From positions 1 to 64,000 of IMG/VR virus record IMGVR_UViG_3300026257_000002: 64,000 bases of DNA, one strand, 5' to 3'. This document shows, piece after piece, positions 12,918 to 16,524 of the stretch. The translations under genes were made by a program, and so were the position numbers. How positions within the stretch are numbered: position 1 is the first letter of the stretch; each line of letters opens with the position of its first letter. The DNA is from a virus. The notes under the pieces were generated by a model, which searched no databases, was not told the DNA's origin, and worked only from the letters and a program-made list of their open reading frames with translations.

Positions 12918-12942
12918 TTATTTAGTAAGAGGTTATGGACAA

Positions 12943-13014
12943 CTCCCAAGGCAGGATTTGAACCTGCGACCGAGTGATTAACAGTCACCTGCTCTGCCAC
13001 TGAGCTACTTGGGA
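12943..13014 (-). tRNA. trnN: tRNA-Asn (GTT)
   Basis: A 72-nt cloverleaf on the minus strand. Acceptor TCCCAAG pairs with CTTGGGA and the discriminator is G. The anticodon loop CTGTTAA gives GTT, with a 5-bp anticodon stem. The T-arm GCAGG/CCTGC holds TTCAAAT. CCA is not encoded. It lies directly downstream of the tmRNA. Confidence 0.95.
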
Positions 13015-13038
13015 ATAAAGGGGGGCTTCTCACCCCCC

Positions 13039-13053
13039 CTGAACTACTTGGGT
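13039..13053 (-). repeat. Partial copy of tRNA-Asn 5' end
   Basis: The minus strand matches the first 15 nt of tRNA-Asn (acceptor and D-stem start) at 13 of 15 positions, 39 nt before the real tRNA and within the 3' part of the tmRNA precursor. Possibly a recombination scar. Confidence 0.55.
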
Positions 13054-13083
13054 AACAAGGCTAGTTTAACCCCGATCTCCCAT

Positions 13084-13134
13084 TCAGGCAGTCACGAGTT
13101 CGCGAGTGCGGGAGAATGCTACGATGTTATTCGC
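13084..13134 (-). other. tmRNA tag reading frame
   Basis: GCG resume codon through TGA gives ANNIVAFSRTRELVTA (16 codons plus stop). It has the same length and Asn-x-Ile-Val-x-Phe-x-Arg core as cyanobacterial tags as I remember them, which end Ala-Pro-Val-Ala-Ala. A GCT codon directly before is an alternative resume site. Confidence 0.75.
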
Positions 13135-13282
13135 AGCAGGTGTAGATGTTTTAGCATCTGTTGTTTGCTTATCCAAGCAGGTTTCAGTCACAATCGTAAT
13201 AACCCGTCTAAACCGTGGCACCCCCATGAATGGAGGTGAGGAGAGTCGAACTCCTGTCCGAGCCTATTCGTAAAGTCACCTA

Positions 13283-13300
13283 TTCCTCTTTGAAGAGGAA
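13283..13300 (-). other. Perfect 8-bp hairpin at 5' end of tmRNA precursor
   Basis: TTCCTCTT/AAGAGGAA with a 2-nt centre lies between the tRNA-Thr 3' end (13301) and the tmRNA T-arm. It may be a processing stem for releasing the flanking RNAs. Confidence 0.5.
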
Positions 13301-13372
13301 TGCCATCAGGAGGATTTGAACCACCGACCTTGGCTTTACAAAAGCCCTGCACTACCACTGTGCTATGATGGC
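13301..13372 (-). tRNA. trnT: tRNA-Thr (TGT)
   Basis: A 72-nt cloverleaf. Acceptor GCCATCA pairs with TGATGGC, discriminator A. The anticodon loop TTTGTAA gives TGT, reading ACA. The T-arm loop is TTCAAAT. CCA is not encoded. Two bases separate it from tRNA-Arg. Confidence 0.94.
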
Positions 13373-13374
13373 GA

Positions 13375-13448
13375 CGATTCAGGTTGGACTCGAACCAACG
13401 ACCGACTGCTTAGAAGGCAGTTGCTCTACTCCACTGAGCTACTGAACC
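13375..13448 (-). tRNA. trnR: tRNA-Arg (TCT)
   Basis: A 74-nt cloverleaf. Acceptor GGTTCAG pairs with CTGAATC, discriminator G. The anticodon stem ACTGC/GCAGT holds loop CTTCTAA, giving TCT for AGA codons. AGA is common in this AT-rich genome and rarer in host genes, the usual reason offered for carrying it. Confidence 0.94.
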
Positions 13449-13452
13449 AAAG

Positions 13453-13534
13453 TGGGCAAGGTTGGATTTGAACCAACGTAGGCAGAGCCAAGGGATTTAC
13501 AGTCCCTCTCCTTTAACCACTCGGACACTTACCC
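13453..13534 (-). tRNA. trnY: tRNA-Tyr (GTA)
   Basis: An 82-nt class II tRNA with a long variable arm. Acceptor GGGTAAG pairs with CTTGCCC, discriminator A. The anticodon loop CTGTAAA gives GTA. It is the first of the RNA genes in transcription order. Confidence 0.94.
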
Positions 13535-13551: not shown

Positions 13552-13764
13552 TCATGTGTAGTATGCTTGAAAGTATTTAACAATACCATCAGAACGAACA
13601 TTACCCTGAGACACCCAATCATGGCAACACTGAGTGATGCTGTTCATACTATACATTGGTTCTTTATTTTTGTCAAGCACAGATCCAAAACGAGTGAGGA
13701 GAAGACTGTAAACTTTTTGCCTCAACTCCATACGGTCATCGCTATAACGCCAATCATCAATCAT
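13552..13764 (-). CDS. Conserved-looking phage protein, 70 aa
   Basis: Begins MIDDWRYSDDRMELRQKVYS. An internal Met (MELRQK) is another possible start. Helical N-terminal half and a Tyr-rich C-terminus (GIVKYFQAYY). I recall very similar small proteins in other cyanomyoviruses; function unknown. Likely co-transcribed with the tRNA block. Confidence 0.65.
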   Translation of the reverse strand: MIDDWRYSDDRMELRQKVYSLLLTRFGSVLDKNKEPMYSMNSITQCCHDWVSQGNVRSDGIVKYFQAYYT

Positions 13765-15136: not shown

Positions 15137-15787
15137 ATGAAAATCTTTTTAGACACCGCTGACCTTAATGAAATCAAAAAAGCAGCAAGAACTGGTTTAG
15201 TTGATGGTGTCACTACAAACCCCACACTAATTAAAAAAAGTGGCAGGACTCTTCCTGACGTTGCTAAAGAACTGATTAATACATATCCACAATTTGAAAG
15301 TGTATCATGTGAGGTGGTTGCTGAGACTGCTGAAGAAATGATTGAACAAGCTCAACAGTTTATTCAATTAGGAAATGAAGCAATCACTATCAAACTACCA
15401 TGTACTATAGAAGGTTTGATTGCATGTAGAACACTCTCTGTGCTTGGTATTAAAACTAATGTCACATTAGTGTTCTCTGTAGCACAAGCAATCATGGCAG
15501 CAAAGGCAGGTGCTACTTATATCTCACCTTTCGTAGGACGCTGTAATGATAACTCATTCAGTGGTGTAGAACTTGTTCATGCTATCAGTAAAACTTATTG
15601 TGCTCAGGATGTAAAAACTCAAATTCTCGCAGCATCATTGAGAGATGTTCATCATGTATCACGGTGTTTTTCTTTTGGTGCCAGCGTTATTACAATGCCA
15701 CCTAAAGTATTCTGGGCAATGTATAATCATGTGCTTACTCGCGAAGGATTAGATCAATTCCAAAAAGACTGGGAAGAAGTACAATGA
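15137..15787 (+). CDS. talC: Transaldolase
   Basis: Small TalC/FSA-type transaldolase of 216 aa, transferring a dihydroxyacetone unit in the pentose phosphate pathway. The N-terminal MKIFLDTADLNEI and GVTTNPTL (24-31) are family hallmarks. The Schiff-base Lys is K86 in AITIKLPC. The end has the usual SFGASVITMPPKV. Cyanophages are known to carry talC and are thought to push host carbon from the Calvin cycle toward NADPH and ribose supply. It is the central gene of the plus-strand island. Confidence 0.96.
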   Translation: MKIFLDTADLNEIKKAARTGLVDGVTTNPTLIKKSGRTLPDVAKELINTYPQFESVSCEVVAETAEEMIEQAQQFIQLGNEAITIKLPCTIEGLIACRTLSVLGIKTNVTLVFSVAQAIMAAKAGATYISPFVGRCNDNSFSGVELVHAISKTYCAQDVKTQILAASLRDVHHVSRCFSFGASVITMPPKVFWAMYNHVLTREGLDQFQKDWEEVQ

Positions 15788-16056: not shown

Positions 16057-16524
16057 ATGGGTGCTATGACACCGCCGAGCAGAAAGTCCTGCTACAACTT
16101 CAGAGTAACGGAGATCAATCGTGTTCTTGATGGTGATACTATTGATGTCACTATTGATCTTGGGTTTGATTTATACAAGAAAGAAAGAGTTAGAGTTGCA
16201 GGCGTTGATACGCCGGAGAAAAGGACTAGAAATTTAGAGGAGAAAAAACTTGGAATCGACGCAACCAACTGGCTCAAAGAGAAACTGGAGAGTACTATCG
16301 CTGGTGATGATGAGTTGTCTGTTAGGACTGAACTTGTTGGTGGGGTCGGTAAGTATGGGCGTCTTCTTGGTTGGTTATACATTGGGGACTCAGAATTGTC
16401 TCTCAACGAACAAATGATTGAAGAGGGATATGCTCACGCATACGATGGTGGCACCAAAGACATGAATCTTGAAGCACTTCGGGAGATTCGTAAGGCACAT
16501 GGTACTCTAATAGAAATAGAGTAA
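16057..16524 (+). CDS. Staphylococcal-nuclease-like (thermonuclease) protein, 155 aa
   Basis: An SNase-fold phosphodiesterase. VLDGDTI supplies the calcium-binding Asp27. RVRVAGVDTPE supplies Arg46, Asp51, Thr52 and catalytic Glu54. GKYGRLLGWLY supplies Arg102. All catalytic positions are kept. A ribosome-binding GAGGAA lies 9-14 bp upstream. No signal peptide, so it probably acts in the cell, perhaps on host nucleic acid; that role is inference. Confidence 0.88.
   Translation: MGAMTPPSRKSCYNFRVTEINRVLDGDTIDVTIDLGFDLYKKERVRVAGVDTPEKRTRNLEEKKLGIDATNWLKEKLESTIAGDDELSVRTELVGGVGKYGRLLGWLYIGDSELSLNEQMIEEGYAHAYDGGTKDMNLEALREIRKAHGTLIEIE

Follow-up and report, generated by a model that had tools for sequence, protein, structure and literature searches.

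Does the tmRNA gene of this virus encode a tag whose end departs from those of its hosts, and what would such a tag do to the proteins that carry it? The question arises from the initial annotation, which described a phage tmRNA with a tag that starts like a cyanobacterial one and ends unlike those of hosts. The window, the whole stretch of DNA analysed here, covers positions 1-64000 of a virus record 132,522 bases long. Among its products are T4-type terminase, portal, major capsid, scaffold and tail-sheath proteins, including homologues of gp17, gp20 and gp23 (PF03237, PF07230, PF07068), and the nearest relatives of its DNA are cyanomyoviruses such as S-SSM5 and S-H38. Judged by its sequence, the source virus is a T4-like cyanophage with ocean cyanobacteria as hosts. 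ARAGORN finds a minus-strand run of tRNA-Tyr, tRNA-Arg, tRNA-Thr, the permuted tmRNA and tRNA-Asn (Table 1). The promoter-like site upstream of this cluster has 11 of 12 consensus bases, where shuffled sequence averages 2.7 such sites, and falls within a 70-aa frame (13552-13764). Also near the cluster are genes for a transaldolase (15137-15787, plus strand) and an endonuclease (16057-16524, plus strand); in S-CAM1 and S-CAM3, a transaldolase likewise lies downstream of the tmRNA.

Table 1. Features of the tmRNA locus, in coordinates of the window
Feature	Position	Strand	Basis or remark
Permuted two-piece cyanobacterial-type tmRNA gene	13021..13309	-	Rfam RF01851, 132 bits; RF04321, 68.9 bits
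Intervening sequence UUCAU	13226..13230	-	Between discriminator A73 (13231) and G1 (13225); RF01851 alignment
G3:U70 pair, acceptor stem	G3 13223, U70 13234	-	By eye from RF01851 alignment
Frame of the initial annotation, ANNIVAFSRTRELVTA and stop	13084..13134	-	GCG at 13134 to TGA at 13084
Probable full tag frame, AKTSTPAANNIVAFSRTRELVTA, 23 codons and TGA	13084..13155	-	ARAGORN coding part 168-239; A at -4
Seven-codon N-terminal extension AKTSTPA	13135..13155	-	Absent from hosts
Small hairpin AGAUG/CAUCU around proposed resume codon	13144..13159	-	Covariation
Stem-loop with tag C-terminal codons and stop	13076..13115	-	Fold -17.6 kcal/mol, z -5.09
Apical hairpin	13109-13088	-	Thr codon ACU (-2) pairs with upstream ACU codon
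tRNA-Thr	13301-13372	-	ARAGORN; upstream of tmRNA
tRNA-Arg	13373-13449	-	ARAGORN; upstream of tmRNA
tRNA-Tyr	13452-13534	-	ARAGORN; upstream of tmRNA
tRNA-Asn	12942..13015	-	ARAGORN, Rfam; downstream of tmRNA
Promoter-like site TTGACA-17-TATAGT	13648..13676	-	Upstream of tRNA/tmRNA cluster; weak evidence

The tmRNA gene runs in the order 3' acceptor/T-arm piece, intervening sequence, 5' acceptor piece, tag and pseudoknot region. The Rfam family cyano_tmRNA (RF01851) matches it at 13309-13021 (E 1.3e-35, gathering score 70, model 1-288), tmRNA_permuted (RF04321) matches the same gene, and ARAGORN calls a permuted tmRNA at 12993-13322 on the minus strand, with the tag AKTSTPAANNIVAFSRTRELVTA followed by a stop. 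Because host tmRNAs score 286-329 bits with the RF01851 model (four hosts and the 30 best of a family search in which 219 of 251 genomes matched), the phage tmRNA is clearly derived; its score is low for the family, and we counted this against our best explanation. The tRNA-like half retains the T arm and the acceptor stem, a spacer of five bases separates A73 from G1, and a G3:U70 pair is present by our reading. Such a pair in the acceptor stem marks alanine acceptance in tmRNA. We also considered a second host tmRNA as donor and rejected it: the second match in Synechococcus WH7803 (C1:862708-862935, 153.6 bits) is a copy of the mRNA-like part of the host gene with the host tag, without T arm, acceptor or tRNA-like domain.

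In 11 cyanophage loci, a complete tRNA gene sits inside the tmRNA intervening sequence, between the acceptor 3' end and G1. It is tRNA-Tyr in L140, L142, L150, L167, L175, L183, L184, L190 and L207, and tRNA-Asn in L165 and L208, with the position confirmed in alignments of these last two. An excerpt of PMC11915505 terms a tRNA gene at that tmRNA site unique to one nominally archaeal tmRNA.

Tag ends were compared in host and viral samples. For hosts, we read 104 of the 105 loci of set A (L058 is cut at the locus end) and 73 of the 73 loci of set B, which was drawn from the four-host search and from the higher-scoring matches listed for the 251 genomes of the family search and so under-samples low-scoring hosts; the two sets overlap and hold 158 unique sequences. 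The first viral scans gave 117 loci, of which 62 lacking a permuted ARAGORN call were left out, many of them perhaps chance matches or one-piece genes. Of the 55 with a permuted call, five with non-cyanobacterial tags were also set aside (L010, L011, L016, L017 and L022, all ending in -AA). The remaining 50, together with seven phage records (from 18 with a substantial match) and the window, make up 58 cyano-type viral loci.

All 177 picocyanobacterial host loci end their tag, 16 aa long, in -VAA. The -PVAA that the initial annotation took as usual is right for marine picocyanobacteria, with two host tag types reading -ALVAA. The phage tag lacks the canonical C-terminal Ala-Ala of ssrA and ends in Thr-Ala. 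A host strain with this ending was named at the outset as what would tell against the claim; we looked for one and found none among the 177 host loci, and an ending like RTRELVTA, with up to two mismatches, occurs in none of 400 host genomes. A host ending missed by sampling was rejected on this count, the pattern being positive in the window as a control. The identity as a phage tmRNA, the cyanobacterial-like start of the tag and its departure from the host end were borne out. The ending is not peculiar to this phage, however: among the 58 cyano-type viral loci, the last two residues are TA in 23, AA in 16, LV in nine, AV in four, SV in two, LA in two, CA in one and VA in one, so that 15 end in -V. 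Counted by unique tmRNA sequence (45), the figures are TA 16, AA 13, LV 6, AV 4, SV 2, LA 2, CA 1 and VA 1. Phage use does not depend on a changed end, since 16 of the 58 loci keep -AA.

Because the first viral scans leaned towards relatives, we added a scan whose pattern touches the tRNA-like domain alone and is therefore blind to the tag. It returned at least 120 matches; among the matches listed, the pattern fell within a tmRNA call at 101 loci (95 unique sequences), some tmRNAs being cut by locus ends (L411, L355). Sorted by eye among these listed matches, 6 of 14 unique tmRNAs with ANNIV/ANKIV-type tags lack -AA, versus 3 of the 81 others (Fisher p 2.3e-4, a figure that overstates the evidence because relatives are treated as independent). 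The other viral tmRNAs thus keep -AA in 78 of 81 listed cases, and in two of the three that do not (L382, L383) the frame seems to have been miscalled. One-piece cyanobacterial loci in a phylum-wide sample (n = 30) end in -AA in 26 cases, in -VA in three and in -AC in one (a doubtful call), with none in -TA. Within these samples, the changed ending appears to be a trait of cyanophages rather than of viral tmRNAs in general, and the tag end seems to have been rewritten repeatedly in such viruses while staying invariant in the host cells sampled.

A further group of 14 loci carries tmRNAs without the seven-codon extension described below, with tags that stop after -LV, -SV or -AV, so that the final Ala-Ala is absent (L015, L029, L138, L147, L148, L151, L158, L173, L179, L188, L191, L192, L194 and L204). 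Among named phages, the -LV group matches only AG-345-P14, over 47% of the query. The record of L188 contains a T4-type portal gene; of 51 records searched, 5 have such a gene, four of them with extended tmRNAs and one with -LV, most records being fragments.

Where does the tag begin? The coordinates first assigned to it, 13134-13084, are exact, and the frame there reads ANNIVAFSRTRELVTA and stops; the frame of 16 residues is real, but it is probably the last 16 of 23, with the start at the GCT at 13155, seven codons upstream. An A stands at -4 of this GCU (position 13159) and is absent at -4 of the GCG at 13134. In hosts, A lies at -4 of the ANNIV codon in 177 of 177 loci; in the extended phage tmRNAs, it lies at -4 of the upstream codon in 43 of 43, where the base at -4 of the ANNIV codon is C in 31 and T in 12, never A. 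The 15 viral tmRNAs without the 21-base insertion have A at -4 of ANNIV, and among the matches listed in the further scan the same holds, with A before the upstream codon in 12 of 12 extended and before ANNIV in 3 of 3 non-extended tmRNAs. The ten bases AACAACAGAT, which precede the upstream Ala codon in the window, directly precede the ANNIV tag start in L173, a locus without the insertion. A passage of PMC2481249 describes A86 as the main frame determinant in E. coli tmRNA. Because the -4 A tracks the upstream codon, and given the role of A86 in E. coli, the tag is probably AKTSTPAANNIVAFSRTRELVTA. ARAGORN agrees with a start at 13155, but it misplaces some host starts and was given little weight. 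The extension itself has the look of an ancient copy of the ANNIV start, duplicated in frame; the sequence in L159 is AKNIATA-ANNIVAF.

Against a start at 13155 counts the small AGAUG/CAUCU hairpin, a predicted helix that overlaps the codon at which translation is proposed to resume, together with the A at -4. Across 21 distinct rows, 96.2% of its cells are paired, and two of its five pairs are changed on both sides, in four rows each. In an E. coli mutant, resumption can be blocked by a helix of this kind, as the available portion of PMC2481249 suggests.

The frame ends in a stop and is conserved at the codon level across phages. Over codons one to nine of 32 distinct phage tags, the variable columns number 3, 2 and 9 at codon positions one, two and three, and over all tag pairs single-nucleotide codon differences are synonymous in 1629 cases versus non-synonymous in 94. 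This coding-type conservation, with changes mostly at third positions, opposes the other doubt raised at the outset, that the frame is untranslated. Chance or a wrong frame was rejected on the Rfam match, on the codon conservation and on a degenerate pattern for endings like AFSRTRELVTA, which matches the window once against 0.00 expected and also served as a positive control.

How did the end come to differ? The C-terminal codons form the apex of a stem-loop that also holds the stop. Across 11 distinct -TA sequences, this stem-loop has standard pairs in 88 of 88 cells, and AG-345-P14, S-SSM7, L430 and L443 supply the changes on both sides that three of its eight pairs show; in slid alignments the paired share drops to 15-43%. 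All 11 of the -TA rows have an identical Thr codon in their RNA, its partner being the upstream ACU/AUU codon, and since it sits in a conserved helix, RNA structure by itself might keep it in place. The WH7803 host and the STVAA phages carry a different apex hairpin, GCAGC/GCUGC. L206 (STVAA) and L002 (RTRELATA) are near-identical in the mRNA-like part on either side of the apex. In a tree of the tmRNA without its tag codons, the -TA rows do not form one clade, with at least seven changes (p-AU 0.005; 234 columns, some long branches, and the -TA group tested after the first tree was seen), and -TA as a single inherited event was rejected on this tree. Because the ends of L206 and L002 differ at the apex and the -TA rows are not one clade, the tag end appears to be an exchangeable RNA hairpin cassette that moves between tmRNA bodies. 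The RNA, its conserved frame, the difference between host and phage, the hairpin and the exchange of ends are direct observations. The S-SSM7-type tags (L006, L430), which are 31 aa long, have gained an extra hairpin; their outer stem is UUUGCCC/GGGGCAA in place of UUCUCCC/GGGAGA, and it still pairs.

The reading that we favour, at even confidence for the whole, is a working two-piece phage tmRNA that depends on its host, rescues ribosomes and adds a tag with a weakened ClpX signal. The tmRNA would share a transcript with the tRNA cluster, and the enzymes that process tRNAs would split it in two. Once it carries alanine, host SmpB and EF-Tu would bring it to ribosomes that have stalled on broken mRNAs in the infected cell, which it would free. 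Translation would resume, most likely, at GCU 13155, adding Ala and AKTSTPAANNIVAFSRTRELVTA. We found no gene for SmpB or for ClpP in the 132,522-base record, which may be incomplete, so that their absence from it is not proof; phage-made SmpB or ClpP was rejected on this basis, and host factors would be used. We infer expression, resume codon, use of host SmpB and proteolytic effect. Within an exchangeable hairpin, the host -VAA end would have become -VTA, still a ClpX-type signal (small, uncharged, with a C-terminal Ala) of reduced affinity. In E. coli ClpXP, changing the last or the penultimate Ala raises KM with little effect on Vmax, according to an excerpt of PMC7652416. By analogy with these terminal changes, -VTA should bind ClpX less well yet still be degraded. 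Against a weakened signal, E. coli efficiently degrades tags that end in -LVA and so have valine at -2; if this is right, degradation of -VTA may be normal. Most likely, the tmRNA works with host SmpB and its degron is less tightly bound by ClpX, the net effect being ribosome rescue with tagged proteins destroyed more slowly or by another route.

The main rival, a serious alternative to which we give somewhat less than even credence, holds that RNA structure, recombination and drift explain the ending: the apical hairpin is swapped and then held by pairing, Thr at -2 is a tolerated side effect, and proteolysis is unchanged. The conserved helix with three pairs changed on both sides fits this account, as do the adenine of the Thr codon, which pairs with U in 11 of 11 sequences, the near-identical L206 and L002 with their different ends, and the scatter of -TA over the tmRNA tree. 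Yet an Ala codon, GCU, could pair there too (U.G), so Thr is not forced; host tags in the equivalent helix never leave -AA, other viral tmRNAs mostly retain it, and the remaining changed endings (-LV, -SV, -AV, -LA, -CA) arise outside this hairpin.

Redirected degradation, in which tagged proteins are shifted from ClpXP to ClpCP, FtsH, a Lon-like protease or a phage-made protease or adaptor, strikes us as unlikely. The last two tag residues are small or hydrophobic and uncharged in 58 of 58 phage loci, as expected of a signal that is still read, but the diverse endings do not indicate one new reader, and the record search noted above yielded no ClpP. Least probable is an inhibitor or decoy that titrates SmpB or blocks host trans-translation, its frame unused: the frame is complete and codon-conserved and the -4 A tracks its start, neither of which a decoy needs, although parts of PMC4131195 and PMC11915505 discuss the tRNA-like-domain-only tmRNA of mycobacteriophage DS6A as an inhibitor.

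Among the closest known systems to the phage tmRNA is the host two-piece tmRNA of Prochlorococcus and marine Synechococcus (RF01851), with which it shares the permuted gene, the alanine acceptor features, the ANNIV start, the pseudoknot region and a tag helix enclosing the stop codon. It differs in its N-terminal extension, its -VTA end and its apical hairpin. The same gene form and extension occur in the cyanomyoviruses S-SSM7, S-CAM1, S-CAM3 and Sf-FS3 and in Marine virus AG-345-P14. Of these, Sf-FS3, AG-345-P14 and S-SSM7 also end in -TA, the S-SSM7 tag being eight residues longer than that of the window phage, and S-CAM1 and S-CAM3 end in STVAA. In the annotation seen, none of the five has a tmRNA feature; in GenBank, the tmRNAs of S-SSM7, S-CAM3 and S-CAM1 are overlapped by 'hypothetical protein' frames (L006 1482-1700 for S-SSM7; L004 1455-1595; L005 1470-1595).

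Phage tmRNAs, including two-piece cyanophage ones, are already known. Excerpts of the literature report them in mycobacteriophages and phage G (PMC4131195), count 79 phage tmRNA sequences (PMC11915505), and describe permuted tmRNAs as commoner in marine phages, with 53 two-piece ones in one survey and AG-345-P14 among the phages named (PMC9004378). The marine phage Melnitz and its relatives likewise encode a permuted two-piece tmRNA, of the alphaproteobacterial type in contrast to ours (same excerpt of PMC9004378, which does not take up tag endings). ClpXP likewise reads the C-terminal residues of the E. coli ssrA tag (AANDENYALAA) as the signal (PMC7652416, in part); the phage tag has Thr for the penultimate Ala and other residues upstream. 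An excerpt of PMC7966870 mentions the SsrA tag for E. coli only. In the open-licence literature, supplements being outside this scope, we found no account of cyanophage tmRNAs with altered tag starts or endings, and these alterations are apparently new.

Our analysis also corrects how such phage tags are read, in both start codon and length. Natural pairs of near-identical RNAs with different degrons, such as L206 and L002, bear on why phages carry tmRNA: they allow a direct test of whether ribosome rescue, proteolysis or the sparing of tagged protein is the selected trait, and culturable Synechococcus hosts are on record for the isolates Sf-FS3 and S-SSM7. Tentatively, T4-like cyanophages may have turned tmRNA from 'rescue and destroy' to 'rescue and spare', swapping or trimming the hairpin end, moving the resume codon upstream and weakening the ClpX signal in several lineages, with ends that read -TA or -LA or that lost the final Ala-Ala to leave -LV, -SV or -AV. 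If this is true, ribosome recycling would be kept, and viral tags would form a tunable degron system distinct from that of the host.
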